From Nitratireductor aquimarinus (GTDB lineage: Bacteria; Pseudomonadota; Alphaproteobacteria; Rhizobiales; Rhizobiaceae): a stretch of DNA of 64,000 nucleotides. This document shows, in pieces, positions 9,514 to 56,957 of this stretch. The stretch's first letter is position 1. Each line of letters begins with the position of its first letter. The notes beneath the pieces are model-generated. The model was not told the origin of the DNA, ran no database searches, and was given only the letters and a program-made list of their open reading frames with translations. The position numbers were made by a program, and so were the translations under genes. The stretch spans positions 1-64,000 of the forward strand of contig NZ_JAFKDE010000009.1 of NCBI RefSeq assembly GCF_017255295.1, given 5' to 3'.

Positions 9514-9545
9514 CTGTCAAATCACCGTCGCACGCCTCCGCTAGG
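9514..9545 (+). promoter_or_regulatory. PHO box and -10 region of phoX
   Basis: Heptamers CTGTCAA and CCGTCGC are separated by 4 bp (consensus CTGTCAT-N4-CTGTCAT; 6/7 and 4/7 matches). CCGCTAGG begins 7 bp after the second heptamer, the same register as at phnG and phnC. Located 62-93 bp before the phoX start. Confidence 0.6.
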
Positions 9546-9606
9546 AGTCTGGGCATTTGCCGAGACAGGTCGGCTCGGTCCAGCACAAAGCCAGAGGAAT
9601 GCCGTC

Positions 9607-11487
9607 ATGAAAAAGCAGGATATCGTCAATCTCTCCTGGGATGAATTCGATGAAATGCGCGATCCCCGCCCCGATGCCAATGGCTTCGATGCGGTTGTCG
9701 AGCGCGCCATTTCGCGCCGTGGCTTTCTGGGCGGCGTGCTTGCCTTCGGCTCTGCCGCAGCCGTGATGGGGAGTGGAGTTCTCTCCTCCACCACCTCCGC
9801 AAAGGCGCAAGTCTCGGCCTTCGCGTTCGAGCCGATTGGCATCGCCACCGACCACGACATTCACGTCCCGAAAGGCTACGCCTGGAAGACGCTGGTGCGC
9901 TGGGGCGATCCGCTTTTCAAGGAAGCCGAGGGCGCCTATTCGCCGGAAACGGGCGTGTCCGTCGACATGTCCGACAAGGTGTTCGGTGAGAACACCGACG
10001 GCATGGAAACCTTTGTCGATGGCGACAAGACGATCCTCGCGATCAATTCGGAATATGTGAATCCGAAGATCAACCTGCCGGCCGCCTCCGAAGGCATGCC
10101 GCAGAACGCCGATGAAGTGCGTCTTCTCAAGAACATGCAGGGCGTCACCGTGCTCGAGATCGCCGACAGCGGCGACGGCTATGAAGTCGTGCTCGACAGC
10201 CCCTACAACCGTCGCATCACCCATGAAACGCAGATGACGATGGACGGCCCCGCCGCCGGCTCCGATCTGGTCAAGACCAACGCAGATCCTGAAGGCGTTT
10301 CGCCCAAGGGCACGATGAACAATTGCGGCTCCGGCAAGACGCTCTGGGGCACCTATCTGACCTGCGAAGAAAACTTCAATGGCTATTTCGGTACGACCGC
10401 CAAGCGTGAAGCCACCGAAGGAGAAAAGCGCTACGGCATCGGCGGCGAAGGCCGTTACGCCTACGAAAAGTTTGAAGAGCGCTTCGACCTCGCAAAAGAG
10501 CCCAACGAGCCGAACCGCCATGGCTGGGTCACGGAAATCAACCCGCGCGACCCGTCCTCCACCCCGGTCAAGCATACGGCGCTCGGCCGCTTCAAGCACG
10601 AGAACGCCGAGATGGTGCAGGCCGCCGACGGTCGCATCGTGGTCTATATGGGCGACGACGAGCGCGGCGAGTTCATCTATAAATATGTCTCCGACAAGAG
10701 TTGGGCCGAAGGCCAGCCGACCGATGGCCTGCTGTCGAACGGCACGCTGTATGTCGCAAAGTTCAATGACGACATGACCGGCGAGTGGCTGCCGCTGACC
10801 CCGGAAAGCACGGGCATGGAACTGGCGGACATTCTGGTGTTCTCGCGCATGGCGGGCTCCAAGGTCGGCGCGACCACCATGGACCGCCCCGAATGGGTTG
10901 CCGCAAACCCGCTGCGCGTGGAGGTGTATTGCGCTCTCACCAACAACAAGAACCGTGGCGTGAAGGCCAATGCCGGCGGTGATGAACAGCCGGTGGGCGG
11001 CCCCAACCCGCGCGAGACAAACAATTACGGTCAGATCGTGCGCTGGCGCCCGGCTGGCGAAGACCATGGCGCAGACGGCTTCACCTGGGATCTCTACGTC
11101 ATGGCCGGCAACCCGACCGTCTACGACAACGTCTATGCCGGCTCGGAAAACGTCAACGAAGGCAACATGTTCAACTCGCCCGACGGCATGGCCTTCTCCT
11201 CCGATGGCATGCTGTGGATCCAGACCGACGGCGACGACAGCAATGAAGGCGAGTTCGCTGGCCAGGGCAACAACCAGATGCTGGTCGGCAATCCCGAAAC
11301 CGGCGAGATCGCCCGCTTCCTGACCGCGCCGAACGGCGCGGAAGTGACCGGCCTCAGCTGGTCGCCGGACGGCAAGGTCGCCTTTGTCGGCATCCAGCAT
11401 CCGGGCGGCAACTGGCCGGACGGAAACGGCAAGCCGCGCTCGGCGGTCATCGCGGTCTGGCGCGAAGATGGCCAGGCCATCGGCTGA
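9607..11487 (+). CDS. phoX: PhoX family alkaline phosphatase, Tat-exported
   Basis: 626 residues. A twin-arginine signal (SRRGFLGGVLAFGSAAAVMG, about residues 36-56) and a cleavage region ending AKAQ mark it for folded export to the periplasm. The rest is a PhoX/DUF839 beta-propeller, including NNCGSGKTLWGTYLTCEEN, TPVKHTALGRFKHENAEM, YMGDDERGEFIYKYVS and SPDGMAFSSDGMLWIQTDGDD. PhoX enzymes are Ca/Fe-dependent phosphomonoesterases that release phosphate from organic esters. ATG at 9607 is chosen because the N-terminus then matches the family; the upstream in-frame extension crosses the promoter. A PHO box lies upstream and a terminator follows. Confidence 0.93.
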   Translation: MKKQDIVNLSWDEFDEMRDPRPDANGFDAVVERAISRRGFLGGVLAFGSAAAVMGSGVLSSTTSAKAQVSAFAFEPIGIATDHDIHVPKGYAWKTLVRWGDPLFKEAEGAYSPETGVSVDMSDKVFGENTDGMETFVDGDKTILAINSEYVNPKINLPAASEGMPQNADEVRLLKNMQGVTVLEIADSGDGYEVVLDSPYNRRITHETQMTMDGPAAGSDLVKTNADPEGVSPKGTMNNCGSGKTLWGTYLTCEENFNGYFGTTAKREATEGEKRYGIGGEGRYAYEKFEERFDLAKEPNEPNRHGWVTEINPRDPSSTPVKHTALGRFKHENAEMVQAADGRIVVYMGDDERGEFIYKYVSDKSWAEGQPTDGLLSNGTLYVAKFNDDMTGEWLPLTPESTGMELADILVFSRMAGSKVGATTMDRPEWVAANPLRVEVYCALTNNKNRGVKANAGGDEQPVGGPNPRETNNYGQIVRWRPAGEDHGADGFTWDLYVMAGNPTVYDNVYAGSENVNEGNMFNSPDGMAFSSDGMLWIQTDGDDSNEGEFAGQGNNQMLVGNPETGEIARFLTAPNGAEVTGLSWSPDGKVAFVGIQHPGGNWPDGNGKPRSAVIAVWREDGQAIG

Positions 11488-11508
11488 TTGCCCACCGCCG
11501 CAGATCAG

Positions 11509-11540
11509 AAAGGGGACGTCCTGCGGGGCGTCCCCTTTTG
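11509..11540 (+). terminator. Intrinsic terminator of phoX
   Basis: 10-bp stem AAAGGGGACG / CGTCCCCTTT with a 10-nt loop, followed by TTTTG, starting 21 bp after the phoX stop. Confidence 0.85.
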
Positions 11541-11715
11541 CATGCGGGGGCGAATTCGGAGATGGCGCACCATCCCGCTCACTCTCTTGACCCGCACAGC
11601 GGCCAGCCCTTTTCGTTTCAAAACGAGCCGTTTATGACGGCTTGACGCAGACACATTTCCACCCCACCTGTCAGCCGCCCCGCATAATGCAATTCACCAA
11701 CCGGATCACCACACC

Positions 11716-12513
11716 GTGCAAGCGCTCAAGAGCCTGATTGAATCCCGCCGTTTCGAGGCGGTCATCACCGTCCTCATCGTCATCAACGCCGTCACGCTCG
11801 GGCTCGAAACCTCAGAGCGCGCCATGGCCGCCCTTGGCCCGCTGCTGCTGACGATCGACCGGGCAATCCTCGGCGTCTTCGTGCTGGAACTCATGGCGCG
11901 CTTCGCGGTCTACCAGAAGAATTTCTTCCGCGATCCCTGGCGCATCTTCGATCTCTTGATCGTGGGCATCGCGCTGGTGCCGGCAACGGCCGGCCTCTCG
12001 GTGCTGCGCGCCCTGCGCATTCTGCGTGTGTTGCGGCTGGTCAGCATGGTGCCGTCGCTGCGCCGGGTCGTTGGCGGCCTTGTCGCGGCGCTGCCCGGCA
12101 TGGGCTCCATCATGCTGCTGCTCGGCCTCGTCTATTATGTGTTCGCCGTGATGGCGACGAAGCTTTTCGGCGCGTCCTTCCCCGACTGGTTCGGCACGAT
12201 CGGCCATTCGGCCTATTCGCTGTTCCAGATCATGACGCTGGAAAGCTGGTCGATGGGCATCGTGCGACCGGTGATGGAAGTCTATCCGCTTGCCTGGATG
12301 TTCTTCATCCCCTTCATCGTCTCCACCACCTTCACGGTGCTCAACCTCTTCATCGGTATCATCGTCTCGGCCATGCAGGCCGAGCATGATGAGGAAGCAT
12401 CGGCAGAGCGCACGGCGCTACAGGCCGAACAGGAAGTCATCCTCGATGAAATCCGCGCCCTGCGCAAAGAAGTGCAGGCGATGAATGCCGAGAAGCAGAA
12501 GGTGGAGCGCTGA
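11716..12513 (+). CDS. Voltage-gated sodium channel (NaChBac family)
   Basis: 265-residue single-domain channel that would form a homotetramer. It has six membrane segments. S4 carries regularly spaced arginines (RALRILRVLRLVSMVPSLRR, residues 98-117). The pore selectivity filter is TLESWSM (174-180), the canonical bacterial Nav signature (LESWS). A C-terminal charged helix (residues ~215-265) looks like the tetramerising coiled coil of BacNav channels. The start is GTG at 11716; the only nearby ATG (11687) is out of frame. The gene stands alone between phoX and dcd, and its stop lies inside a hairpin shared with dcd. The role (motility, pH or osmotic response) cannot be read from context. 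Confidence 0.93.
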   Translation: MQALKSLIESRRFEAVITVLIVINAVTLGLETSERAMAALGPLLLTIDRAILGVFVLELMARFAVYQKNFFRDPWRIFDLLIVGIALVPATAGLSVLRALRILRVLRLVSMVPSLRRVVGGLVAALPGMGSIMLLLGLVYYVFAVMATKLFGASFPDWFGTIGHSAYSLFQIMTLESWSMGIVRPVMEVYPLAWMFFIPFIVSTTFTVLNLFIGIIVSAMQAEHDEEASAERTALQAEQEVILDEIRALRKEVQAMNAEKQKVER

Positions 12514-12529
12514 TCGGAACGATCAGCGC
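12507..12529. terminator. Shared hairpin containing both stop codons
   Basis: Perfect 10-bp inverted repeat GCGCTGATCG / CGATCAGCGC with a 3-nt loop. The TGA stop codons of the channel gene (plus strand) and dcd (minus strand) both lie within the stem. No long T tract follows, so it may block convergent transcription or protect 3' ends rather than act as a classical terminator. Confidence 0.6.
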
Positions 12530-13614
12530 ATCCGGAAATGCTTGGAGAGCTTGAGCGACTGGCCCTGATAGTTTGACTTCAGGTCCGCGCCATAGAGCGC
12601 GCTCGGCCGCGACAGCATCCGCTCATAAACGAGCCGGCCAACGATCTGTCCATGTTCGAGAATGAACGGGACTTCGTGGCTGCGCACTTCCAGAACCGCG
12701 CGGCTGCCGGTTCCGCCTGCCGATGAATGGCCGAAGCCGGGATCGAAGAAGCCGGCATAGTGAACGCGGAATTCGCCCACCAGCGGATCGAAAGGCGTCA
12801 TCTCGGCGGCATGGAAGGGCGGCACATGCACCGCCTCCTGCGACACGAGAATATAGAACTCGTCCGGATCGAGAATCAGGCCGCCAGCGCCATCGCCGGT
12901 GAGCGGTTCCCAGAAATCGGCAACCTCGTGCTGGTCGCGCTTGTCCACGTCGATCAGCGCCGTGTGATGCTTCGCGCGGTAACCGATCAGCCCGTTGGCG
13001 TCGCCACTCAGATCCACTGAAAGCGCAATGCCGCCCTTGGTGATGTTCGGCTCTTCCGCCGCGACCAGCGTTTCACGCGCATGCAGGTCAGAAAGCGCGC
13101 TTTCATCAAGCAGCGCCTTGCCGGTGCGAAAGCGGATCTGCGACAGGCGCGAGCCGGTGCGCACAACGATGGGGAAGGTGCGCGGGCTCACTTCCATGTA
13201 GAGCGGGCCGGAATAGCCGGCGGGGATCTTGTCGAACTCCTGGCCATTGTCGGTCATCACGCGCGTGAAGATGTCGAGCCGGCCGGTCGAGCTTTTCGGA
13301 TTGGCGGAAGCCGAGATGCCATCCGGCAGGTCGAGCCCTTCCAGAAGCGGCACGATGTAAACACAGCCGGTTTCCAGAACCGCCCCCTCGCCCAGCTGGA
13401 TCTCGTGCAGCTTGAGCCGGTCGAGCTTTTCCGAAACGCGATGGTTGGGACCGGGCAGGAAGCTGGCGCGCACGCGATACGCCACAGCGCCAAGCCTGAG
13501 GTCGAGACTGGCCGGCTGGATCTGGTCAGGGTCCAGTGGGCGGGCCGAGGCCAGCGCCCCGTTGTCGAACAGTGCCGCGATGTCCTTGTCCGGCAGAATT
13601 CCCGCTTTTGCCAA
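12523..13614 (-). CDS. dcd: dCTP deaminase (2'-deoxycytidine 5'-triphosphate deaminase)
   Basis: 363-residue long-form alphaproteobacterial enzyme of the dUTPase/Dcd superfamily, with two related halves. Seen: LDPDQIQPASLDLRLG, ANPKSSTGRLDIFTRVMTD, a second-half AGFFDPGFGHSSAGGTGSRAVLEV and EHGQIVGRLVYERM. It deaminates dCTP to dUTP for dTMP synthesis. The start is TTG at 13614, placed 5 nt after AAGGAGAAGGGG; no ATG gives a sensible N-terminus and the longer frame runs into the riboswitch region. It is divergent from metZ. Confidence 0.88.
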   Translation of the reverse strand: MAKAGILPDKDIAALFDNGALASARPLDPDQIQPASLDLRLGAVAYRVRASFLPGPNHRVSEKLDRLKLHEIQLGEGAVLETGCVYIVPLLEGLDLPDGISASANPKSSTGRLDIFTRVMTDNGQEFDKIPAGYSGPLYMEVSPRTFPIVVRTGSRLSQIRFRTGKALLDESALSDLHARETLVAAEEPNITKGGIALSVDLSGDANGLIGYRAKHHTALIDVDKRDQHEVADFWEPLTGDGAGGLILDPDEFYILVSQEAVHVPPFHAAEMTPFDPLVGEFRVHYAGFFDPGFGHSSAGGTGSRAVLEVRSHEVPFILEHGQIVGRLVYERMLSRPSALYGADLKSNYQGQSLKLSKHFRMR

Positions 13615-13705
13615 CGCCCCTTCTCCTTGCACAGGGTTTAATTGAACGAGGTTTAGCGCCGCTTGTCGTTGACGCAAGGCGCTTGAGGGTCTAATGGACC
13701 TTTAT

Positions 13706-13762
13706 CCCGTGGTGATTTGGCCGGTCGGCTTGCAGCCACGTTAAAGAAGTCGCTAAAAGGCC
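13706..13762 (+). ncRNA. SAM-II riboswitch (metA motif)
   Basis: S-adenosylmethionine-sensing aptamer of alphaproteobacteria, upstream of metZ. The signature order is intact: CGTGG (13708-13712) pairs with CCACG (13736-13740), enclosing GATTTGG and GTCGGCTTGCAGC. The pseudoknot strand TTTGGC (13716-13721) is complementary to GCTAAA (13752-13757). It ends 65 bp before the metZ ATG. High SAM should reduce metZ expression. Confidence 0.95.
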
Positions 13763-13776
13763 GCGCTCGATGGACG

Positions 13777-13810
13777 AACCGGCATGCGACTTTTCGCGGC
13801 CGGTTTTTTT
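13777..13810 (+). terminator. Terminator hairpin in metZ leader, mutually exclusive with an upstream pairing
   Basis: AACCGGC (13777-13783) pairs with GCCGGTT (13799-13805), followed by a T tract to 13810: an intrinsic terminator shape 17 bp before the metZ ATG. The right arm overlaps CGCGGCC (13795-13801), which can instead pair with GGCCGCG (13759-13765), immediately 3' of the aptamer. The alternative pairings fit a SAM-dependent attenuator. Confidence 0.6.
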
Positions 13811-13826
13811 GTTGGGTAAAGAAGCG

Positions 13827-15017: not shown

Positions 15018-15043
15018 ACCTCAGCCCCGCGCTCCGGGCCGGT

Positions 15044-15649
15044 TCAGCCGAACCGGCCTGCCGCCAGCACGATGCGCGACACGGTCGTGTAGAGCGTGAT
15101 GAGAGCAAAGGCGTAGGCAAAGATCGCGAACCATTGCGGGAAAAGGCACATGGCCACGAACACGGCCAGCGTCTCGCTGGCCTCGGCCAGCCCTGTGGTG
15201 AAGAACAGCGATTTCTCGCCCCGCGCCCTGCTCTTGAGACGGTGTTTTTCGGCCATCACCGCATAGGCGAGAAAGCTCGCCCCATTGACGTAGAACGCAA
15301 GAAGCAGCACCCCGCCGGCAATGGCGTTGGCTTCCGGATTTGCAATGATGAAGCCAAGCGGCACCGCGCCGTAGAAGGCGAAATCGAGCACAATGTCGAG
15401 ATAGCCGCCGAAATCTGTTTTGCCGTTGATGCGCGCCACAGCGCCATCCAGCCCGTCGCACAGCCGACTGGCGAGAATAAGCGCCAGTCCGGCCCAGTAC
15501 CCACCGAATGCGATGGCCGCCGCTGCCGCCAGCCCCAGAACCAGACCTGCATAAGTGATGGCGTTCGCGCGCACTCCCGCCGCCGCGAGCTGCGTCGCCA
15601 TGGCCGACAATCCGGGATCGATCTTTCGGTGCGCCCAACCGTCAAGCAT
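15044..15649 (-). CDS. CDP-alcohol phosphatidyltransferase family protein
   Basis: 201-residue integral membrane enzyme with the complete family motif D-G-x2-A-R-x8-G-x3-D-x3-D (DGLDGAVARINGKTDFGGYL, then D and D, about residues 64-90). It transfers a phosphoalcohol from a CDP-linked donor to an acceptor alcohol. It has about five hydrophobic helices. The substrate is not evident: it is shorter than PgsA/PssA consensus proteins and resembles the stand-alone YnjF-type members. ATG at 15649. It converges with metZ (26-bp gap) and is divergent from apaG. Confidence 0.88.
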   Translation of the reverse strand: MLDGWAHRKIDPGLSAMATQLAAAGVRANAITYAGLVLGLAAAAAIAFGGYWAGLALILASRLCDGLDGAVARINGKTDFGGYLDIVLDFAFYGAVPLGFIIANPEANAIAGGVLLLAFYVNGASFLAYAVMAEKHRLKSRARGEKSLFFTTGLAEASETLAVFVAMCLFPQWFAIFAYAFALITLYTTVSRIVLAAGRFG

Positions 15650-15724
15650 GTTTCACCACTGTTTCCCTGCTGAACGGCCCATGATTAGCGTCTTTCCTGC
15701 TCTCATGCCGCTCACAATGGCGTC

Positions 15725-18166: not shown

Positions 18167-18185
18167 GCCCGTCTCCCTGGTTTTA

Positions 18186-20435: not shown

Positions 20436-21152
20436 CTAGTTTTCGGGCGCCGCGACAACCCGGTGGCTCTGATCTTCCTTTGGACGCTCGAGCGGTAACT
20501 GCCGGCCCGTCACGATGTGATGCACCGTTTCCGCGATATTGGTCGCATGGTCGCCGATGCGTTCGATGTTCTTGGCGCAGAACAGAAGATGGGTGCAGGC
20601 CGTGATGTTGCGCGGGTCTTCCATCATGTAGGTGAGCAGCTCCCGAAAGAGCGACGTGTACATGGCGTCGATTTCCTCATCCCGGTCGCGCACGAAACCG
20701 ATGCGCTCCACGGAACGGGAGGCATAGACATCGAGCACTTCCTTGAGCTGGGTCAGCGCCAGGCTCGCCAGCGCCTCCAGCCCGCGGAAAAGACGGATCG
20801 GCTGACTGCCCTCGGTCACCGCAACAACGCGCTTTGCGATGTTCTTGCCGAGATCGCCGATGCGCTCCAGATCCGATGAAATACGAATGGCGCCCACGAT
20901 CTCGCGCAAATCGTCGGCGACCGGCTGGCGCTTGCCGATGATGATGACGGCGCGTTCACCGATCTCCCGCTCCTTCTCATCAAGGAACAGATCATCCTCG
21001 ACCACCTTGCGGCCCAGTGCGGCATCCGACTGCACGAGCGCAGCGACGGATTCCGCCACCATGCGCTCAGCATAGCCACCCATGGCTGCAATCTGGTCCG
21101 ACAGATAGTTCAACTCATCGTCGAATGACCGCATCGTGTGCTGTGTCTGCAT
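20436..21152 (-). CDS. phoU: Phosphate signalling/transport regulator PhoU
   Basis: 238 residues forming two PhoU three-helix repeats. Each has the metal-binding pattern: ISSDLERIGDLGKNIAKRV (about 85-105) and CAKNIERIGDHATNIAE (about 190-206). PhoU restrains PhoR when phosphate is ample and affects Pst transport and polyphosphate. ATG at 21152 is preceded by AGAAGG. A PHO box lies 76-93 bp upstream. phoR is immediately upstream on the same strand, but the usual pstCAB genes between them and phoB after phoU are missing. Confidence 0.95.
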   Translation of the reverse strand: MQTQHTMRSFDDELNYLSDQIAAMGGYAERMVAESVAALVQSDAALGRKVVEDDLFLDEKEREIGERAVIIIGKRQPVADDLREIVGAIRISSDLERIGDLGKNIAKRVVAVTEGSQPIRLFRGLEALASLALTQLKEVLDVYASRSVERIGFVRDRDEEIDAMYTSLFRELLTYMMEDPRNITACTHLLFCAKNIERIGDHATNIAETVHHIVTGRQLPLERPKEDQSHRVVAAPEN

Positions 21153-21213
21153 GGTTTCAATCCTTCTCAGCCCGGCCTTCTCAGCCCGGTCGGCCTCGTT
21201 GCCTGCCATCCCT

Positions 21214-21245
21214 ACTAAGTTATTGTGATGGCGGTAAAATGAAAG
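21214..21245 (-). promoter_or_regulatory. PHO box and -10 region of phoU
   Basis: On the minus strand CTTTCAT-TTTA-CCGCCAT (21245 down to 21228) matches PHO-box heptamers at 6/7 and 5/7 with 11-bp pitch. TTAG lies 10 bp beyond the second heptamer, in the same register as at phoX, phnG and phnC. Confidence 0.55.
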
Positions 21246-21278: not shown

Positions 21279-22481
21279 TTACCCTGCCGGCGGCACGGGC
21301 GGGAAATGAACGGTGAACGAAGAGCCCTCTCCCGGCGCCGATTTCACGGAAAGCCGCGCATCGTGCCGCGTCAGAATGTGCTTCACGATGGAAAGGCCGA
21401 GGCCCGTCCCCTTCTGGATCCGGCTCGTTTCGATATCCACGCGATAGAAGCGCTCGGTGATGCGCGGGATGTGCTCTTCGGGAATGCCGGGACCGAAGTC
21501 GCGCACCGTGATCCGCACCTCATCCATCGGGCTTGCCTGCTCGGCCGATACGATAACACGCTCACCGTCACTGCCATATTTGCAGGCGTTTTCGATCAGG
21601 TTCTCGAAAACCTGAACAAGCTCATCGGAATGCCCTGCGATCAGCATCGGTTTGACACCGAGCTCCGAAACAAACTCGACATCATTCTCGCCGGCAATGT
21701 GACGCATGGACTCCATCACGCCCTTCACGAGCTCCACCACATCGAGTTGCGTGCTCGGCTTCTGATAGGGCTTCATCTCCAGCCGTGACAGCGACAGGAG
21801 ATCATCGATGAGCCGCGCCATGCGCTGCGTCTGGTTCTGCATGATCTGCAGGAACTTTTCCCGCGCCGCCGGGTCATCGCGGGCCGGGCCGCGCAGCGTT
21901 TCAATGAAGCCCGCAACGGAGGCCAGCGGCGTGCGCAGCTCATGGCTGGCATTGGCGATGAAGTCCGCCCGCATCCGGTCGATCCGGCGCGCTTCGCTCT
22001 GATCCTTGAAGAGCAGGACATAAAGGCCAGTATCATTGCCAATGCGGCTCGCTACCACCCGGTAGGCGCGCTCGACGGGCACCCGCTCCGCATAATTGAT
22101 CGCGACGGACTCCTCCGCACCCGAGATCACCTTGGCGACCAGCTCATGCATTTCAGGCGCACGGAATTTCAGGCGCAGCGACACGCTCTTCGACACAGGG
22201 CCGAACGCAAGATCAGCCGCCTCATTGGCATAGAGTATGCCGCCATTGCTGTCGAAGATGTACAGCGGGTCAAGCACCGCCGCCGCCAGATAGACGGCAG
22301 GCAATGAATTGATGTCGCCCTTCTTCGGGCGCGGCTTCTCGGCCTTGCCATTGCTGCGTGCGCCCGCAAAAAGGGCGCCAGCGGCTTTCAGGGCCGATCC
22401 GATACGAGCAACAAGACCGCGCTCAACGCCGTCCTGATTTTCCTGCCCATTGTTCTCATTCGCACTCATTACGAAGTCCAT
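21279..22481 (-). CDS. phoR: Phosphate-regulon type sensor histidine kinase (PhoR-like)
   Basis: 400 residues. An N-terminal ~60-residue charged segment is followed by a PAS domain (VLDPLYIFDSNGGILYANEAADLAF, about 68-170), then the HisKA dimerisation domain with the phospho-histidine in FIANASHELRTPLASVAGF, and the HATPase domain: ENLIENACKYGSDGERV (N box), DFGPGIPEEHIPRITERFY and GTGLGLSIVKHIL. No clear transmembrane helix is seen at the N-terminus, unlike classical PhoR with one or two. PhoR identity rests on phoU immediately downstream and on the PAS-HisKA-HATPase order. The response regulator PhoB is not in the window. Confidence 0.85.
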   Translation of the reverse strand: MDFVMSANENNGQENQDGVERGLVARIGSALKAAGALFAGARSNGKAEKPRPKKGDINSLPAVYLAAAVLDPLYIFDSNGGILYANEAADLAFGPVSKSVSLRLKFRAPEMHELVAKVISGAEESVAINYAERVPVERAYRVVASRIGNDTGLYVLLFKDQSEARRIDRMRADFIANASHELRTPLASVAGFIETLRGPARDDPAAREKFLQIMQNQTQRMARLIDDLLSLSRLEMKPYQKPSTQLDVVELVKGVMESMRHIAGENDVEFVSELGVKPMLIAGHSDELVQVFENLIENACKYGSDGERVIVSAEQASPMDEVRITVRDFGPGIPEEHIPRITERFYRVDIETSRIQKGTGLGLSIVKHILTRHDARLSVKSAPGEGSSFTVHFPPVPPAG

Positions 22482-32993: not shown

Positions 32994-33028
32994 GTTACTC
33001 TTCCTAGAATCTTTCTAGCCTAAATCTG

Positions 33029-34363
33029 TCAGCTTTCCAATTTAGGACTATTTTCGCCCATTTCCAGATTGTTATCCGGAGCAACAAATACGGCTCTGGG
33101 CCAGATAACCTCGGCATAAGCGCCTTTTCCGCTTTCGGCGAGGTTACCAAAACGAATCTGTGCGCCCGAGCGCTCAAGCAGCGTCTTGGCGATGAACAGA
33201 CCAAGCCCGAGCCCGCCGCCACTGCTGGAGCCCGGCGCGCGCTTGGACATATAGGGTTCGCCGATCCGGTCAAGGATTTCAGCCGGGAAGCCGTGTCCGT
33301 CATCGATCACCAGAAGGCCGACCTTGTAGGAATCCCAGTGCCAGCGGATCGTCACGCTCTCTTTCGCGAAGTCGACCGCGTTCTCGACCAGATTGCCAAG
33401 CCCGTAGATCACACCGGGATTGCGCCGCCCCACGGGCTCCGGCCCGTCGGTCACGCCGGGCTCCAGGCGGATATCGATGCCGAAATCGCGATGCGGGGCC
33501 GCCGTTTCCTCGATCAGCGAGGTGAAGGGCTGCCGCGCCATATGCGCCTCGCCCTCCGATGACAGGCTTGTGAGCTGGCGCAGGATCTCGCGGCAGCGCT
33601 CGCTCTGGGTGCGCAGGAGCGTCACATCTTCGCTGAAGCGGTCGTCATTGCCGAGCGCACGCTCCATCTCGCGCGCCACCAGCGCAATGGTGGCAAGCGG
33701 GGTGCCGAGTTCATGCGCGGCGGCAGCAGCCAGACCATCGAGCGCCGAAATATGCTGTTCGCGCTGCAGCACGAGTTCGGTGGCGGCGAGCGCATTGGCC
33801 AGAAGCCGCGCCTCCTTCGCCACCCGGTAGGCATAAACACCCGTAAACGCGATACTCGACACCACGGCGATCCACACGCCGATGATGTAGATCAGGGGCA
33901 TCACCAGCTCCGTCCCCGGGAACCAGGGAAGCGGGCGATGGAACACGGCGAGCGCCGTTGTCAGCGCCACCACCAGAAAGCCAAGAAGCGCAGTCCAGCG
34001 CAACGGCAGCGATGTGGCCGAGATCACCACCGGCACCGTCATCAAAAGCGAGAACGGGTTGGTGAGACCGCCCGTCATGTAGAGCAGGCCCGCCAGCTGA
34101 AACGCATCGAATGTAAGAATGCCGAGAGCGGGCAGCGGCGCAAGCCGGTGCGCCACGGAATATCTGAGCGCCAGATGCACGTTGAGCCAGGCGGATGCCG
34201 CGATCAGCGCAAAGCACATGCCCACCGGCAGCGGGAAGTCAAGCCCGAAGGCGACAACGATCACCGCCGCGCTCTGACCGATGATCGCCAGCCAGCGCAG
34301 CTTGATGAGCGTGTTGAGCCGCAGGCCGTGGCTCGGATCGTGTGCCCTGATATCCTCAAGCAT
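33029..34363 (-). CDS. actS: Redox sensor histidine kinase ActS (RegB/PrrB family)
   Basis: 444 residues. Six membrane helices (about 20-190) include the quinone-binding signature GGLTNPFSLLM. The H-box is AAAAHELGTPLATIAL (the RegB-specific form), and the redox-active cysteine is in QSERCREILRQL. The HATPase domain has NLVENAVDFA, IDDGHGFP and GGGLGLGLFIAKTLLE. It senses the redox state of the quinone pool and phosphorylates ActR. ATG at 34363 (MLEDIRAHD) fits the family; the frame extends another 33 codons without resemblance. Confidence 0.94.
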   Translation of the reverse strand: MLEDIRAHDPSHGLRLNTLIKLRWLAIIGQSAAVIVVAFGLDFPLPVGMCFALIAASAWLNVHLALRYSVAHRLAPLPALGILTFDAFQLAGLLYMTGGLTNPFSLLMTVPVVISATSLPLRWTALLGFLVVALTTALAVFHRPLPWFPGTELVMPLIYIIGVWIAVVSSIAFTGVYAYRVAKEARLLANALAATELVLQREQHISALDGLAAAAAHELGTPLATIALVAREMERALGNDDRFSEDVTLLRTQSERCREILRQLTSLSSEGEAHMARQPFTSLIEETAAPHRDFGIDIRLEPGVTDGPEPVGRRNPGVIYGLGNLVENAVDFAKESVTIRWHWDSYKVGLLVIDDGHGFPAEILDRIGEPYMSKRAPGSSSGGGLGLGLFIAKTLLERSGAQIRFGNLAESGKGAYAEVIWPRAVFVAPDNNLEMGENSPKLES

Positions 34364-40565: not shown

Positions 40566-41330
40566 TCAGCCGGTCTCGTCCGCGCCGGGTATGTGCAACT
40601 CGATACGGTCGGCGGCAAAGCGGGTCTCGGAATACTGCACGGGCTGTCCCTGCGCATCCACATTGATGGCAATGGTCACCAGAACGATCGCGCCGGGCGA
40701 AAGCTGCAGGTCTTTCAGATCGCCCGCTTCTGCGTGCCGGGCTGTTACAGTGGTGTTGTGGCGCAGATAATCGGCAAGGCCCAGTTCCCGGAACGAGGCC
40801 GTGATCGAGCGCGTTCGCGAAAAAATTTCCGCCATGCCCGCAAAGCGCTCCGCATCAAACCAGCCACGGGCGCGGGAAACGGGCCGTCCATCGGCATGCG
40901 AAAGCGTCTCCAGCCGGATCACCGGCGCGCCGGGCGAAAGACACAACGCCTTTGCAACATCAAGGCTCGCGGGCTCCACCGCATGATCGAGCAGATCGGC
41001 GGCGAGCCCGCGCGACTGCCCCGCCAGCCCTTCCGAAAAACGCGTACGGCTGCGGATGGGATAGGCCAGCCGCCTGCGTCCTTCGACAAAGGTGCCGCGC
41101 CCCTGCTCTGCGCGTAAAACGCCTTCCTGCACAAGCGCCGCAATCGCCGTGCGCACCGTGTGCCGGTTGACGCCAAAGCGCTCCGCAAGCGCCACTTCCG
41201 GCGGCATGCGCCCTCCCTGCCCCAGAAGACCTTCACTGATCTCGCGCCGCATGCGGTCGGCGATCTGCCGCCAGAGCGCAACGCCGCTGCGCCGCTCGAT
41301 CACCGCTTCCTTTTTCTTCGCCTGCGCCAA
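40566..41330 (-). CDS. phnF: Phosphonate-operon repressor PhnF (GntR/HutC family)
   Basis: 254 residues. N-terminal GntR winged HTH (LWRQIADRMRREISEG, then MPPEVALAERFGVNRHTVRTAIAAL, about 20-75) and a C-terminal UTRA/chorismate-lyase-like effector domain (RTRFSEGLAGQSRGL and following). It is divergent from phnG, and the inverted repeat at 41406-41425 is a suitable operator. The start is uncertain: TTG at 41330 is used; GTG at 41303, directly after AGGAAGCG, is an alternative. Confidence 0.9.
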   Translation of the reverse strand: MAQAKKKEAVIERRSGVALWRQIADRMRREISEGLLGQGGRMPPEVALAERFGVNRHTVRTAIAALVQEGVLRAEQGRGTFVEGRRRLAYPIRSRTRFSEGLAGQSRGLAADLLDHAVEPASLDVAKALCLSPGAPVIRLETLSHADGRPVSRARGWFDAERFAGMAEIFSRTRSITASFRELGLADYLRHNTTVTARHAEAGDLKDLQLSPGAIVLVTIAINVDAQGQPVQYSETRFAADRIELHIPGADETG

Positions 41331-41352: not shown

Positions 41353-41397
41353 CTGTCATCAACGCGTCATGGACACCCGTTAGGCAAAACCCATAAT
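41353..41397 (+). promoter_or_regulatory. PHO box and core promoter of phnG operon
   Basis: CTGTCAT-CAAC-GCGTCAT (41353-41370): first heptamer 7/7, second 5/7, 11-bp pitch. CCGTTAGG starts 7 bp later (41377). An AT-rich CATAAT follows at 41392-41397. Confidence 0.75.
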
Positions 41398-41405
41398 ATG
41401 TTTGG

Positions 41406-41425
41406 TTGTCTAGAACAATAGACAA
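41406..41425. promoter_or_regulatory. Probable PhnF operator
   Basis: TTGTCTA-N6-TAGACAA, perfect 7-bp inverted repeat, 26 bp upstream of the phnG start in the phnF/phnG divergent region. Position and symmetry fit repression of phnG (and phnF) by PhnF. Confidence 0.7.
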
Positions 41426-41450: not shown

Positions 41451-41918
41451 ATGGTCTCACGACAGGAAAGACAGGCGGTCACCGAGCGGCGGCGCGAAGC
41501 AATGGCGGTGCTGGCCATGGCGAGCGGCGCCGATCTCATGCAGCTCTGGAACGAAGCCGGGCTGCCCGACGAGGCCGAAACGCTGCGCGGACCTGAAACC
41601 GGCCTTGTGACCGTTCGCGGCCGCATGGGCGGCGGCGGCGCGCCGTTCAACTTCGGCGAAGCCACCGTCACGCGCGCCACCGTCAAGCTTCCCGGCGGCG
41701 AGGTTGGCCACGCCTATGCGCTTGGCCGCGAGAAAATGAAGGTGCGGGTTGCCGCCCTCATCGACGCGCTGCGCCAGCAACCTGACCTTGAAGCCCGGAT
41801 CGAGGAAAAGATCCTCGCACCGCTGCGCGCCCGCCGCATCGAGGCTGACGCGATCCGTCGCGCCGAAACGGCAGCCACCAAGGTCGACTTCTTCACCATG
41901 GTTCGCGGAGAGGACTGA
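41451..41918 (+). CDS. phnG: Phosphonate C-P lyase subunit PhnG
   Basis: 155 residues. PhnG is part of the PhnGHIJK core complex and with PhnI, H and L attaches alkylphosphonate to ribose. Seen: RREAMAVLAMASGADLMQLWNEA, PETGLVTVRGRMGGGGAPFNFGEATVTRATV (in parts) and GHAYALGREKMKVRVAALIDAL. ATG at 41451 with AAGGAGG at ideal spacing. The stop overlaps the phnH start by 1 bp (TGATG). Confidence 0.96.
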   Translation: MVSRQERQAVTERRREAMAVLAMASGADLMQLWNEAGLPDEAETLRGPETGLVTVRGRMGGGGAPFNFGEATVTRATVKLPGGEVGHAYALGREKMKVRVAALIDALRQQPDLEARIEEKILAPLRARRIEADAIRRAETAATKVDFFTMVRGED

Positions 41919-47984: not shown

Positions 47985-47995
47985 CACTCCCGTGA

Positions 47996-51706: not shown

Positions 51707-51713
51707 CGGGCAG

Positions 51714-52871
51714 TCACTGCGTTGCGACCGCTGCCCGGATCGCGAAGATGTCGAGCGCCTTGCCGCCGCCCGTCACATCGGGAACGATGGTGATTGTGCC
51801 GCCGCCATTGGGCCGCTCATCCGGCAGCGTGACCTCGAACAGATAATCCGCCCGTGAGGGGCCAACCACATAGCGGGTGCGTCCGCAGCCGCCGAGCGCG
51901 CCGAAATTGCACGACAGCGAAAGCTGCGTTTCCTCGCCATCCTGCGAACGCGCCTCAATGCTGAAGATCGCGCTGCGGCCTGCCAGCGTTTCGAGAATGC
52001 CCTGCCCCACATCGAAGGTGACGCCGGCATTGCCCGCCGTGCTGATGCGCAGGAACACACGATCATCATTGCGCATGACATCCACATTGCCGCCATTGGA
52101 CGCGGCGACCGTCGTCGGGTCGGTCGGATCGAACACGGTGATCCACTCGCCCGCAGCGCGGCTTGTGCCCGATGCGCCCTGCGTGCCCGTGGTCTCGTCG
52201 CTGCCCGTCGAGAACTCTTCTTCCTCAAGCGCCAGCGGCGGATTGGGAACGCTGGTGTCGCGTTCGGCGCTGGACATCAGGATGCCACTGGAAAACGTCC
52301 ACCAGAGCCCCATGGCGACAAAGGCCACCAGGGTCGCCACGAGAAACAGCATGGCGTAGGGGCGGCGCTGCCTTGGCAGGGCCGCGCGAATGCGGCGCTT
52401 GGTTTCCGCATCCGACGGCTGGTCGGGTGCGGAAGGCCGGTCTGCGCGGTCGATCTGCGGCGTGAAATCGCTTTCGGCGCGCCGCACTTGTGCGCGACGC
52501 GGCTCGGGCGCCACTTGGGGCGCCACCTCGGGCGTCACCTGAGGCGAAGGCGCCTGACGCGGCGCGGGCCTCGGCTCCTGCCGCTGTGGCGCTTCGGGTT
52601 CCGGCGCGGCCGGGCGACGGGGCGCGGCTGCGGGAACGAATTCCGTTTCGATTTCGGTGATCGTCGCCTTCAGGTTCTCACGCCGGGCGAGTTTCGCCTC
52701 GTCCGAGAGATCCTCGCGTGCCTCAAGCGTGCGCTCCAGCGCGGCAAACGCCGAGCGGTAGACCTTCTCACGAAAGGACCGCTTGTCTGCGTCGCCCTTT
52801 TCGAACGCCTTTCTTATGGCTTTTTCTATTGCGTCCAAGGCTGGCTGCCCTCTTTGCCTGCTTTGCCCCAT
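51714..52871 (-). CDS. Single-pass membrane protein of unknown function
   Basis: 385 residues, no family recognised. The N-terminal helical, charged region (about 8-75; LDAIEKAIRKAFEKGDADKRS) is followed by a long Pro/Ala/Gln/Arg-rich linker (about 80-165). Next comes a membrane helix (PYAMLFLVATLVAFVAMGLWW, about 172-192), then an exported C-terminal domain rich in beta-strand pattern (about 230-385) with two cysteines (LSCNFGALGGCG). The N-terminus would be cytoplasmic. ATG at 52871 is chosen over a longer frame; no good ribosome-binding site is seen. It converges with the ligase gene (7-bp gap) and is divergent from the aminotransferase. Confidence 0.7.
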   Translation of the reverse strand: MGQSRQRGQPALDAIEKAIRKAFEKGDADKRSFREKVYRSAFAALERTLEAREDLSDEAKLARRENLKATITEIETEFVPAAAPRRPAAPEPEAPQRQEPRPAPRQAPSPQVTPEVAPQVAPEPRRAQVRRAESDFTPQIDRADRPSAPDQPSDAETKRRIRAALPRQRRPYAMLFLVATLVAFVAMGLWWTFSSGILMSSAERDTSVPNPPLALEEEEFSTGSDETTGTQGASGTSRAAGEWITVFDPTDPTTVAASNGGNVDVMRNDDRVFLRISTAGNAGVTFDVGQGILETLAGRSAIFSIEARSQDGEETQLSLSCNFGALGGCGRTRYVVGPSRADYLFEVTLPDERPNGGGTITIVPDVTGGGKALDIFAIRAAVATQ

Positions 52872-52992
52872 GGTTAACCGTTGGTGAGTATGCAATCAAC
52901 GGTGATAACAAGGTGTGAACAATCCATCCTTCCGGCGCGACGCGCGGAAAACGGTTCACAAACCGCTCAAAACAAGGCCGGAGGAGACTGAA

Positions 52993-54135
52993 ATGCGTGA
53001 TTTCGCGCTCGAAGTTCATTTTTCCCGCTGGGAGTTCAATGCCCGGCATCACATGACCGCTTCGGACATGGAGAGCATGACGCTCGGCGAACTGACGCAG
53101 ATGGCAGGGCCGGCGGCGCGCGAACAGCTCGACAGTCTCTGGCTCGGCTACACGGAAACCTGGGGCGCGCCTGATCTGCGCGAGGCCATCGCCGCCACCT
53201 ATGACGGACTTTCCGCCAGCAACATTCTCTGCTTCGCCGGGGCGGAGGAAGGCATCTACGCCGCCATGCGGGTGATGCTCACGCCCGACGACCACGCCAT
53301 CGTCTCGGTGCCCAACTATCAGGCGGCCGAGACCGTGCCGCTCGGCCTGTGCGCCGTTACCGGCGTGCCGCTTCTGGAAGACAAGAACTGGCGGCTCGAC
53401 CTCGACGCAGTGCGCGCCGCGATCCGCCCCAACACAAAGCTCATTTCCGTCAACCTGCCCAACAACCCGACCGGCGCGCTGATGCCGCAGGACGATTTTG
53501 CGGAACTGGTGGAGATCTGCCGCGCGCATGATCTCTATCTTTTCAGCGACGAGGTCTATCGGCTTCTGGAGCGCGACGAGAGCAAGCGCCTGCCGCAGGC
53601 CGCCGAGATCTATGAGAAAGGCATCTCGCTCAATGTGATGTCCAAGGCCTACGGCCTGCCGGGCCTGCGCATTGGCTGGATCGCCAGCCCGGACACGGCG
53701 CTCCTGCTGAAATTCGAGCGCTACAAGCACTACCTCTCGATCTGCAATTCCGCTCCCAGCGAGCGTCTGGCGGTGATGGCGCTTTCGGTGAGCGACCGCA
53801 TTCTTGAGCGAAACCGCGCGCTGATTGCCGAAAACCTGGAGAAGATGGACGCGTTCTTCGCCGACCATGCCGACCTGTTCGACTGGACACGGCCCGATGG
53901 CGGCTGCGTGGCCTATCCGCGTTACAGGGGCGCCGACGGCGTGGAAGCCTTCTGCCGCGATCTGGTCGAAGAGCAGGGCGTGCTGCTTCTGCCCGCCTCG
54001 GTCTATCACTCGGAGCTGATGGATGCGCCGGCCGGACGCTTCCGCATCGGCTTTGGCCGCCGGGGCATCGACGCGGGACTGACCGCGATGCGGGCCTTTC
54101 TCGAACGCCGTCACAACGGTGTTGCGGCCGGGTGA
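52993..54135 (+). CDS. Class I/II PLP-dependent aminotransferase
   Basis: 380 residues. Fold type I aminotransferase: SVPNYQAAETVPLG, VNLPNNPTGALMPQDDF (substrate/PLP Asn), LYLFSDEVYRLLERDE, and the PLP lysine in NVMSKAYGLPGLRIGW. C-terminal Arg in FRIGFGRRG may bind the substrate carboxylate. ATG at 52993 with GGAGGAG upstream; the 78-bp in-frame extension lacks conservation. Substrate unknown. A nitronate monooxygenase gene follows after 137 bp. Confidence 0.9.
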   Translation: MRDFALEVHFSRWEFNARHHMTASDMESMTLGELTQMAGPAAREQLDSLWLGYTETWGAPDLREAIAATYDGLSASNILCFAGAEEGIYAAMRVMLTPDDHAIVSVPNYQAAETVPLGLCAVTGVPLLEDKNWRLDLDAVRAAIRPNTKLISVNLPNNPTGALMPQDDFAELVEICRAHDLYLFSDEVYRLLERDESKRLPQAAEIYEKGISLNVMSKAYGLPGLRIGWIASPDTALLLKFERYKHYLSICNSAPSERLAVMALSVSDRILERNRALIAENLEKMDAFFADHADLFDWTRPDGGCVAYPRYRGADGVEAFCRDLVEEQGVLLLPASVYHSELMDAPAGRFRIGFGRRGIDAGLTAMRAFLERRHNGVAAG

Positions 54136-54235
54136 GGAGACGCCCGGCGCAAAAAATGCGACAAGGGTTCCCGGGACGCTTCGGGAGCCCGCAAGATCAA
54201 GGGTTCCCAACAAGGGGTGAGATGCTGTAGAAGTT

Positions 54236-54257
54236 TTGACGTTTACGAATACGTCAA
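54236..54257. promoter_or_regulatory. Inverted repeat before the nitronate monooxygenase gene
   Basis: TTGACGT-N8-ACGTCAA, perfect 7-bp arms, directly before the GAGGAG ribosome-binding site and 15 bp from the ATG. It overlaps a possible -35 (TTGACG) and looks like a repressor operator. Confidence 0.55.
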
Positions 54258-54272
54258 TTGAGGAGATAGCCA

Positions 54273-55229
54273 ATGGCGCTTCCGGCCGTTTTCGACAAAT
54301 TGCGTTTGCCCGTGGTCGGCGCGCCTCTGTTCATCATCTCGCATCCGCCGCTGGTGGTGGCGCAGTGCAAGGCCGGCGTGGTGGGCTCGTTTCCCGCGCT
54401 CAACGCCCGCCCCAAGGAGCAGCTCGACGAGTGGCTTTCGCAGATCACCGAAGAACTGGCTGCGCATGACGCACAGAACCCGGATCGTCCCTCCGCCCCC
54501 TTCGCGGTCAACCAGATCGTTCACCGGTCCAATGACCGGCTGGAGCATGACCTGAGGGTCTGCGTGGACCACAAGGTGCCAATCGTCATCACCTCGCTGG
54601 GCGCGGTCGAGGAAGTGAACCAGGCCGTCCACTCCTATGGCGGCATCGTGCTGCACGACATCATTCACGACCGCCATGCGCGCAAGGCGATCGAAAAGGG
54701 CGCTGACGGGCTGATCGCGGTTGCAACCGGGGCCGGCGGCCATGCAGGCACGCTCTCGCCCTTCGCGCTGGTGCAGGAAATCCGTCAGTGGTTTGACGGG
54801 CCGCTGCTTCTCTCGGGCGCCATCGCCAATGGCGGCGCGGTTCTGGGCGCTCAGGCCATGGGCGCGGACCTCGCCTATATCGGCTCACCCTTCATCGCCA
54901 CCCATGAGGCGCGCGCCAGCGACGACTACAAGGAGATGATCGTCTCTTCGCGCGCAGCCGACATCGTCTATTCCAACCTGTTCACCGGCGTGCACGGCAA
55001 CTATCTGAAGGGGTCCATCGTCAACGCCGGCATGGATCCCGACAACCTGCCGGAAGCCGACCCGTCGAAGATGAATTTCGCCAGCGCCGACGCAAAGGCC
55101 TGGCGCGACATCTGGGGCAGCGGACAGGGTGTCGGCGCGGTGAGCGAGATCACCGGCGCAGGCGCGCTGGTGGACCGGCTTGCGGCAGAATATGCCGCCG
55201 CAAAGGACCGGCTCTGCACACCGCGCTGA
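54273..55229 (+). CDS. Nitronate monooxygenase
   Basis: 318-residue FMN-dependent TIM-barrel enzyme that oxidises alkyl nitronates (for example propionate 3-nitronate). Seen: LPVVGAPLFIISHPPLVVAQ with CKAGVVGSFPALNAR, PFAVNQIVHRSNDR, the FMN phosphate loop ATGAGGHAGTLSPFALV with the catalytic His, and SGAIANGGAVLGAQAMGADLAYIGSPF (in parts). ATG at 54273 preceded by GAGGAG. A related 2-nitropropane-dioxygenase role is the same family. Confidence 0.92.
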   Translation: MALPAVFDKLRLPVVGAPLFIISHPPLVVAQCKAGVVGSFPALNARPKEQLDEWLSQITEELAAHDAQNPDRPSAPFAVNQIVHRSNDRLEHDLRVCVDHKVPIVITSLGAVEEVNQAVHSYGGIVLHDIIHDRHARKAIEKGADGLIAVATGAGGHAGTLSPFALVQEIRQWFDGPLLLSGAIANGGAVLGAQAMGADLAYIGSPFIATHEARASDDYKEMIVSSRAADIVYSNLFTGVHGNYLKGSIVNAGMDPDNLPEADPSKMNFASADAKAWRDIWGSGQGVGAVSEITGAGALVDRLAAEYAAAKDRLCTPR

Positions 55230-55238
55230 GACCAGATC

Positions 55239-55257
55239 CTGATCTTGGAGAGATCAG
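55239..55257. terminator. Hairpin between nitronate monooxygenase and marR genes
   Basis: CTGATCT-N5-AGATCAG, perfect 7-bp stem, overlapping the marR stop codon; lies between converging genes and lacks a T tract. Confidence 0.5.
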
Positions 55258-55700
55258 CCGTCGTCGCTCAGACTGTCCTGTAGCGACGAGACGATCTTCT
55301 CGAGCAACGCCAGATAGTGCGCGCGCTCCGCATCGGTGAGGGTTTCGAGCGCGAGGCCGTTCACAGCACCAACCGCCTGCCTGACACGCACCGCCTTTTC
55401 CATCGCATCCGGGGTCAACCCGATCAGCCGGCTGCGCCGGTCTTCCGGGTCGGCCCGTCTCTCGATCAGACCATCGCGCTCCATTCGCAACAGCGTTGCC
55501 GCCATGGTCGGCTGCTCGATGCCGGCGCTTTTCGTGAGCGCCTTCTGCGATAGCCAGGCTCCCTCACCCAGCGCGAAGAACACCGGCAGCATGCCGCTGG
55601 TCACGCCGATGTCCCTCAAATTGCGGTCGATGGCGCGCGCGAAAAGCCGCGCTGCCCAGTTCGTCATATAGCCTGCAGATCGTTCACGCCTGAAAGTCAT
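55254..55700 (-). CDS. MarR-family transcriptional regulator
   Basis: 148 residues with the MarR winged HTH: LSQKALTKSAGIEQPTMAATLLRMERDGLIERRADPEDRRSRLIGLT (in parts, about 50-100), including the DPEDRRSRLI wing, flanked by dimerisation helices. ATG at 55700. It is divergent from the cytochrome b561 gene. The 75-bp intergenic region carries a 20-bp tandem repeat that is almost certainly its operator. Confidence 0.93.
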   Translation of the reverse strand: MTFRRERSAGYMTNWAARLFARAIDRNLRDIGVTSGMLPVFFALGEGAWLSQKALTKSAGIEQPTMAATLLRMERDGLIERRADPEDRRSRLIGLTPDAMEKAVRVRQAVGAVNGLALETLTDAERAHYLALLEKIVSSLQDSLSDDG

Positions 55701-55740
55701 TTATATAGCTTGCTATCCATTTATATTGCATGCTATGTAT
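55701..55740. promoter_or_regulatory. Tandem 20-bp operator repeats between marR and cytochrome b561
   Basis: Two adjacent 20-bp units (55701-55720 and 55721-55740) agree at 16 of 20 positions and share TTATAT, GC and TGCTAT. Each contains a near-palindromic core: ATAGCTTGCTAT and ATTGCATGCTAT. The first unit begins right at the marR start. Spacing of two helical turns fits cooperative binding of two MarR dimers. Confidence 0.7.
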
Positions 55741-55775
55741 ATTGCATCGACGGTATCCCCGCAAGGAGAAGGACC

Positions 55776-56312
55776 ATGCGCTGGAAAAGCTCTGATGACC
55801 GCTATGGAGCGGTTGCGATTGCCATTCACTGGACAACGGCCGCGGCCATTGTCGGCATTCTGGCCTCCGGTTTTCAGGCGGCAGACGCGATGGAGGCGGC
55901 AGACAGGCTCGCGCTTCTGCGCATCCATGCCACGCTTGGCATCTTCGTTGTGCTTTTGACGCTGATGCGGATCGGCTGGTGGTGGCTGGGCGATGCCAAA
56001 CCGGCCGATGCCGCCGGCACGCCGCGCTGGCAGGCGCGAGCCGCGCATATCGTGCACGGCCTGCTTTACGTGATCATTCTTGGCATGGGAGCCAGCGGCA
56101 TCGGCATGCTGGCGCTCTCCGGCGCGGGCGCGACCCTTTTTGCAGGCGCCACGACGCCGCTGCCGGACTTCACCACCTATCTGCCGCGCGCGCCGCATGG
56201 TCTGGGAAGCCGGCTTCTGATCGCGCTTCTGGCATTCCACACCGCCGCCGCGCTCTACCACCATTTCGTCATGCGCGGCGGGCTTCTTGGGCGCATGGGG
56301 CTGGGGCGCTAA
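55776..56312 (+). CDS. Cytochrome b561 family protein
   Basis: 178-residue di-haem membrane protein with four helices. Candidate haem-ligand histidines: AIAIHWTTAAA (helix 1), LLRIHATLGIF (helix 2), AAHIVHGLLYVII (helix 3) and LLAFHTAAALYHHFV (helix 4). Prokaryotic b561s oxidise ubiquinol and can reduce superoxide or periplasmic partners. ATG at 55776 with AAGGAGAAGG upstream. Expected to be repressed by the divergent MarR protein. Confidence 0.92.
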   Translation: MRWKSSDDRYGAVAIAIHWTTAAAIVGILASGFQAADAMEAADRLALLRIHATLGIFVVLLTLMRIGWWWLGDAKPADAAGTPRWQARAAHIVHGLLYVIILGMGASGIGMLALSGAGATLFAGATTPLPDFTTYLPRAPHGLGSRLLIALLAFHTAAALYHHFVMRGGLLGRMGLGR

Positions 56313-56363
56313 CGCCCCGCTCACACGCCGCCGGCCAGAACGCACCGGCGATGGCAAAGGCGT

Positions 56364-56783
56364 TTAACCCGGCAGGCCCTCCAGCCGGGTTACCTCATCC
56401 AGCCCGTCATCCCAGTTGGCGCGGCTGGAAAGACAGATATGCGCGTTCGGGCGAATATCGACCGGTGTGTCGAGGCTGCCCGCAGGCACGACGAGAAGTG
56501 CGCCATCCATCTGGATGCCTGGAACTGCCGAGCCGCATTCGCTGCAGAAGCTTTTTTCATGCCGGCTTTCGGGCACCCGGTAAGTCTTGATCCGGTCTTC
56601 TCCTGACAGCCAGGTGATCTTCGCCACGGTGGAGAATAGATTGGCTGCATGCGCCGACCCGGTATCCTTGCGGCAACGGGAGCAGTGACAAAGAAAGAAG
56701 CTCTCGAACGGGCCGGAAATCTTAAATTTGACTGCCCCGCACTGGCAGGAACCCTCGTTCTTCTGGGTCATATACTCACTCAT
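56364..56783 (-). CDS. GFA family (glutathione-dependent formaldehyde-activating enzyme-like) protein
   Basis: 139-residue zinc-binding protein of the GFA/CENP-V fold. Cysteine sets: SCQCGAV, FLCHCSRCRKDTGS and CSECGS, as in the family. The original formaldehyde-glutathione role is disputed and most members are uncharacterised. ATG at 56783 is used; ATG at 56771 is an alternative. It converges with the b561 gene and is divergent from phnC. Confidence 0.88.
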   Translation of the reverse strand: MSEYMTQKNEGSCQCGAVKFKISGPFESFFLCHCSRCRKDTGSAHAANLFSTVAKITWLSGEDRIKTYRVPESRHEKSFCSECGSAVPGIQMDGALLVVPAGSLDTPVDIRPNAHICLSSRANWDDGLDEVTRLEGLPG

Positions 56784-56903
56784 CTCTTTTTGAAGCGGCC
56801 GTGTCTCTATCACAAAGCGCCCGTGCGCGCATCCAGATGCACGCCGACCGCATGAGCGGCCATCGCCCCAGGGCGGCTCCGGCGCTTCAATCGCTGCTGT
56901 GCG

Positions 56904-56957
56904 CTGTCAGAAAACCGTCATCTCTTCGACATGCAGGTTTCATCCGCACCCGTTAGG
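56904..56957 (+). promoter_or_regulatory. Tandem PHO boxes and -10 region of phnC operon
   Basis: Four heptamers at exact 11-bp pitch: CTGTCAG (56904), CCGTCAT (56915), TCGACAT (56926), GTTTCAT (56937), matching CTGTCAT at 6, 6, 4 and 5 of 7. CCGTTAGG begins 7 bp after the last, as at phnG. The phnC start is 66 bp further on. Confidence 0.75.

Follow-up and report, generated by a model that had tools for sequence, protein, structure and literature searches.

Whether the -10 element of PhoB-dependent promoters is a TAG-type element rather than TATAAT is the question raised by a 64-kb stretch of the Nitratireductor aquimarinus genome (assembly GCF_017255295.1, contig NZ_JAFKDE010000009.1, positions 1 to 64,000; hereafter the window). 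Upstream of four phosphate-starvation genes identified by family searches, phoX, phoU, phnG and phnC, heptamers resembling CTGTCAT recur at an 11-bp pitch (the PHO box) and are followed at a fixed distance by a YTAG tetramer, an arrangement from which the original prediction proposed a TAG-type -10 in this lineage. Our analysis indicated that the register is shared and conserved, that its constrained part is the TA pair, and that these sites are most probably ordinary PhoB-dependent sigma70 promoters, in which the box would replace the -35 element and the -10 would be a degenerate alphaproteobacterial (G)YTA; from the sequence comparisons below, we put the probability of this reading at about 0.87.

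The predicted motifs were all found at their coordinates. In detail, the phoX box CTGTCAA-ATCA-CCGTCGC (9514–9531, plus strand; heptamers at 9514 and 9525) is followed by CTAG at 9541 and thus by a putative -10 hexamer TAGGAG (9542–9547), with C at -13 and G at -14. The phoU box CTTTCAT-TTTA-CCGCCAT lies on the minus strand (21228–21245; heptamers at 21245 and 21234), with TTAG at 21218 and the putative hexamer TAGTAG at 21212–21217. At phnG, the box CTGTCAT-CAAC-GCGTCAT (41353–41370, plus strand; heptamers at 41353 and 41364) precedes TTAG at 41380 and the putative hexamer TAGGCA (41381–41386), while phnC carries an array of four heptamers on the plus strand (CTGTCAG, CCGTCAT, TCGACAT and GTTTCAT at 56904, 56915, 56926 and 56937; array 56904–56943), with TTAG at 56953 and the putative hexamer TAGGCG (56954–56959), the register being counted from the fourth heptamer. 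At all four sites YTAG occupies bases 10–13 after the last heptamer, leaving 9 bp between them, and the gap from the last heptamer to the TA is exactly 10 bp; the 10 bp of the original prediction had counted the first base of YTAG. The longer motif CCG(C/T)TAGG does begin at base 7 after the box in phoX, phnG and phnC, as had been noticed, but the flanking CCG and GG did not hold as a general feature in the alignments within or outside the genus. At the place of a -35 element, with a 17-bp spacer to the TA, the four promoters read AAATCA (phoX), ATTTTA (phoU), ATCAAC (phnG) and ATGCAG (phnC), so that no TTGACA-like hexamer was found at this one spacing.

The heptamers had been picked by eye, and the boxes of phoX and phoU are weak, with dimer scores of 13.5 and 14, so that four loosely defined boxes might have fallen into one phase by accident. 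The two strands of the window together contain 49 YTAG tetramers, and the probability of four YTAG matches sharing one phase by chance was about 1.6e-5, a rough estimate that assumes independence and uses the YTAG rate in upstream regions (134 in 50,130 positions), 31 offsets and ten box phases per site. The register was also kept in the genus and recurred over genes and genera when boxes were called independently of the -10 (see below), so we regard chance alignment as extremely unlikely. A fifth on-register YTAG that had not been listed occurs at 33015–33045 on the plus strand, behind a weak box (CTAGCCT-AAAT-CTGTCAG) at the 3′ end of a histidine kinase frame read on the minus strand, and is probably itself due to chance.

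Conservation within the genus was evaluated by aligning upstream regions from this genome and from as many as nine other species. Where the automatic top dimer fell elsewhere, as in two phoX loci and one phnC locus, the box was placed by alignment. The TA was on register in 48/48 genus promoters, including those of pstS (10/10) as well as phoX (8/8, the window box being aligned with seven further loci), phoU, phnG and phnC (10/10 each). Since the distance from box to TA is the same in every phoU and phoX locus of the genus, this genome included, the weak boxes of these two genes look real, as had been argued from the shared phase.

In a further test, the 300 bp upstream of each gene were searched for boxes by a plain CTGTCAT dimer score, the calls were shifted to the last heptamer, and the downstream dinucleotides were counted only afterwards. 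The test set comprised 170 regions of phnG, phnC, phoX, phoU and pstS from 60 genomes, including this one; up to 30 loci were taken for each gene other than pstS, for which 20 of the 28 relatives matched without a locus were fetched and 8 left out. A box was called at threshold in 100 regions, and TA stood at offset 10 in 74 of them, while no other offset between 0 and 29 had it in more than 13. Outside the genus, the corresponding values were 38 of 63 called regions and at most 9 at other offsets, with on-register TA in 16/27 pstS, 5/8 phnC, 11/16 phnG, 4/9 phoX and 2/3 phoU regions. In a run with one locus mis-oriented and 99 forward calls, the peak at offset 10 was robust over thresholds from 12 (95/140) to 16 (23/28), the top dimer alone gave TA at offset 10 in 61/99, and box calls in the controls were rare (6/170 on the reverse strand and 1/147 in the -700 to -400 region). 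In a further phnG set, made up of the best 80 among 575 confirmed places less 3 duplicates and 4 low scores, TA was on register in 72/73 regions; the second-best offset reached 37/73 and came from a TATAAT/operator block further downstream.

The pitch of 11 bp would put base 7 of a next heptamer on the T of this TA, so the TA might instead close one more degenerate PhoB heptamer (its last base T plus the following A) and be no -10 at all. Such a heptamer should leave traces in its first six bases, but in the further phnG regions C1, T2, G3, T4, C5 and A6 occurred at frequencies of 0.27, 0.00, 0.34, 0.04, 0.05 and 0.29, compared with 1.00 for T7, and outside the genus bases 1–6 occurred at 0.27, 0.19, 0.32, 0.29, 0.25 and 0.14, compared with 0.68 for T7. 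Moreover, a pyrimidine precedes the TA in 59/74 on-register regions, where the heptamer has A. A further heptamer is thus very unlikely.

The question is then whether this -10 is TAG-type, that is, a dedicated element of PhoB promoters whose third-base G is read specifically. The fixed register on which that proposal was built stood, while the third-base G did not hold as a rule: G was found in 28/48 genus promoters, 14/38 on-register promoters outside the genus and 30/72 further phnG loci. In this genome, YTAG is present at 7/8 on-register promoters of named genes (phoX, phoU, phnG, phnC, phnC2, phnF2 and an aldolase gene, with pstS as the exception), or at 7/10 when two on-register sites (ATAC and TTAA) that precede no recognised Pho gene are added. 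G also followed the on-register TA in 38/74 regions vs. 307/1399 (22%) for all TA dinucleotides of these upstream regions. However, within the genus the G varies with the promoter, being present in 10/10 phnG and 10/10 phnC loci (the latter all TTAG) but in none of the pstS loci, which read TTAT in 10/10; the third base of phoX is C in four, A in one and G in three of the eight loci, and that of phoU is G in five, C in three, A in one and T in one of the ten. Outside the genus, the third base was G in 14, A in 11, T in 11 and C in 2, a weak G excess (P about 0.03) among related sequences, and in the further phnG loci it was G in 30, T in 16, A in 13 and C in 13. These results indicated that the TA is the constrained pair and the G is promoter-specific; the third base shows a mild preference for G, strongest in this genome, which is a local bias and no lineage rule. 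A dedicated TAG-type -10 is therefore unlikely in our estimate.

Another departure from the E. coli pattern can be considered, though tentatively. Among the 74 on-register regions, G stands at -14 in 36 and, as said, a pyrimidine at -13 in most, whereas T at -7 is found in only 6/38 promoters outside the genus, 2/36 within it and 0/72 of the further phnG loci. It is possible, though we would not bet on it, that the PhoB-bound polymerase of Hyphomicrobiales works with a truncated -10, with selection for (G)YTA at -14 to -11, hardly any T at -7 and a third base that favours G. If so, these promoters would depend more heavily on the activator than those of E. coli and would not fire in the absence of PhoB. 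A housekeeping -10 to serve as a yardstick was not obtained: when 587 kb of locus sequence, estimated to be mostly coding, were scanned with TTGAC as the anchor, TA did not peak where a -10 would be expected, and CTTGAC-N17-YTANNW had 5 matches in the genome vs. 58 for the reversed pattern. We therefore claim no difference between the -10 elements of Pho and housekeeping promoters.

At phnG, a second candidate for the -10 lies further downstream. Between the PHO box and the start codon (41370–41425), TGGACA-N16-CATAAT is followed by the inverted repeat TTGTCTAGAACAATAGACAA (41406–41425), and the divergent gene at 40566–41330 on the minus strand matches Pfam GntR and UTRA. The working -10 of phnG could accordingly be the (C/T)ATAAT at 41392–41397, paired with TGGACA at 41370–41375 over a 16-bp spacer, with YTAG merely falling within that spacer. 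The ATAATATG block and the inverted repeat are kept with few changes in 10/10 genus loci, each reading (C/T/A)ATAATATG, and many Mesorhizobium loci likewise contain TATAAT. However, TATAAT was not seen in the inspected phnG regions of Rhizobium, Brucella, Tardiphaga or Phyllobacterium, almost all of which keep the TA on register, with one Phyllobacterium locus (L248) as the exception, and the downstream element gives no account of phoX, phoU, phnC or pstS. That it replaces the on-register element is rather unlikely, but both -10 elements could be used at phnG, as two promoters. The inverted repeat resembles an operator that a GntR/UTRA regulator would bind, the product of the divergent gene being one candidate, and the arrangement suggests a second phnG promoter under local repression.

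The whole genome (4.57 Mb) was then considered. A combined scan for the box, N9 and YTA with up to 3 mismatches gave 12 matches vs. 3 for the reversed pattern, so that the combined motif is enriched before phosphate genes, as the original prediction required. The TA was exact in 8 of the 12, namely those at phnG, phoU, pstS (TTATTC), phnC2 (TTAGCC), phnF2 (CTAGAA), the class I fructose-bisphosphate aldolase gene (TTAGGG), C8:81210 and C19:30912. The frame downstream of C8:81210 we take to resemble a metallo-hydrolase (HLHPDH motif), while C19:30912 has no recognised gene; the pstS product matches the PstS family TIGR02136 best, below its cut-off. The window phoX and phnC promoters are missing from these matches, their last dimers having 4 and 5 mismatches, respectively. 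A pattern of exact heptamers, a 10-bp gap and YTAG had no match in this genome, being too strict and its gap one base too long. A second phosphonate locus (G000:C19:5904-13309, L151) carries its own phnC and phnF, each behind an on-register Pho promoter, and in the on-register promoter at G000:C5:163902-163931 (L205) the box begins 105 bp ahead of the start of the aldolase gene. As a criterion for recognising PhoB promoters in genomes of alphaproteobacteria, the box-to-TA register is simple and sharp, one that supports the weak boxes of phoX and phoU and adds the aldolase gene and the second phosphonate locus as candidates.

A scan for the box alone, allowing 2 mismatches at most, returned 29 sites vs. 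5 for the reversed pattern, and the neighbouring genes were viewed at 18 of the 29. Boxes also precede frames that, by eye, resemble a polyphosphate kinase and a 5′-nucleotidase (L210 and L145), where no TA is on register; these boxes may act differently or be chance.

The genes behind the four window promoters were assigned as follows. PhoX, an alkaline phosphatase, is encoded at 9607–11487 on the plus strand with the start codon as read here; the Pfam PhoX match (E 5.9e-164) was obtained on the longer open reading frame 9406–11487, and the NCBIfam search gave no match for this product. The phoU gene (20436–21152, minus strand; NCBIfam TIGR02135, E 5.3e-66) follows a phoR-like kinase gene (21279–22481, minus strand), whose best match, TIGR02966 (PhoR, E 2.4e-94), scores 316.1 bits, below the curated cut-off of 334.2. 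On the plus strand, phnG (41451–41918; TIGR03293, E 1.7e-44) is accompanied by phnH, and phnC lies at 57024–57866 (TIGR02315, E 6.8e-98). Two phoU-like matches per genome were found in all 10 genus genomes; in this genome, the second one, besides the window phoU, lies downstream of pstS (G000:C7:325202-325891).

Directly observed are the spacing from box to TA, the conservation of this spacing and the absence of any TTGACA-like hexamer at a 17-bp distance upstream of the TA, and they fit the following scheme. Phosphorylated PhoB would bind head-to-tail on the heptamers at their 11-bp pitch, and the last heptamer pair, sitting at the place of the -35 element, would hold sigma region 4, as in the recruitment known from E. 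coli. RNA polymerase would then engage a -10 in which T(-12)A(-11) is separated from the box by exactly 10 bp. YTAG would correspond to positions -13 to -10, with the TA fixed, the pyrimidine common, the third base loose with its mild G preference and T at -7 usually absent. Start sites are predicted about 5–8 bp after the hexamer, with induction by phosphate limitation.

Several points weigh against ordinary PhoB-dependent sigma70 promoters as a general account. All binomial P values ignore shared ancestry, and the further phnG loci are rich in Mesorhizobium, so they are not 73 independent cases. Outside the genus, 25 of the 63 called boxes have no TA at offset 10. No box reached the threshold in 70/170 regions, including all 8 genus phoX loci, whose top dimers score 11–13.5 and in 2/8 differ from the aligned box. 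In the box-only scan of this genome, TA stood at offset 10 directly in only 2/29 matches and in 4/29 when counted from the last heptamer, which adds pstS and phnC; 25/29 thus had no on-register TA. In E. coli, the TA is at 12 in phoB, none is at 10 in phoH, phnC and ugpB are not cleanly phased, and the phoE box scores only 12.5. Finally, according to the portion of the report consulted (PMC3131613), a PHO-like box upstream of rosR P1 in R. leguminosarum has no role in phosphate control, so box resemblance alone proves nothing.

Compared with known alphaproteobacterial promoters, the Pho elements are compatible with the first half of the -10 consensus of Caulobacter RpoD, GCTANAWC, in which the third base is open, as given in the part of PMC8144410 available to us: G at -14 or a pyrimidine at -13 precedes the TA, whereas bases -9 to -7 of the window sites do not follow AWC. 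For S. meliloti, the housekeeping consensus is CTTGAC-N17-CTATAT in the section seen of PMC2573895, and the sigma70 -10 is called poorly conserved in the passages seen of the S. meliloti start-site paper. The PhoB promoters of this species (phoC, phoX and pstS) are described, in the extract of PMC3616915 that we used, as having a 'poor' -35, and 16/33 boxes lie 22–25 nt upstream of start sites. These promoters have the same kind of box as those reported here. In the S. meliloti SM11 phnC homologue, which goes by the name phoC, the box is followed by ATATGGC on register, so that the geometry is alike in the one promoter compared.

A fixed box-to--10 distance in alphaproteobacterial Pho promoters was not stated in the partly available literature searched, which left most subscription journals outside. 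In E. coli, a 10-bp distance between box and -10 is the rule, which the E. coli sequences back in part. Similar to the window promoters, phoA (TTATAGT) and phoE (TTAAAAA) of E. coli K-12 have TA at offset 10 and two heptamers at an 11-bp pitch in place of a -35 element, and the pstS promoter of E. coli has TA at offset 10 when the first dimer is read. The E. coli phoA promoter differs in having a better hexamer (TATAGT), whereas TAGGCA and TAGGAG here are without T at -7. The 10-bp distance is thus neither new nor specific to this lineage. The window promoters are therefore best regarded as ordinary members of a known promoter class, and the picture of PhoB action is unchanged by the register.

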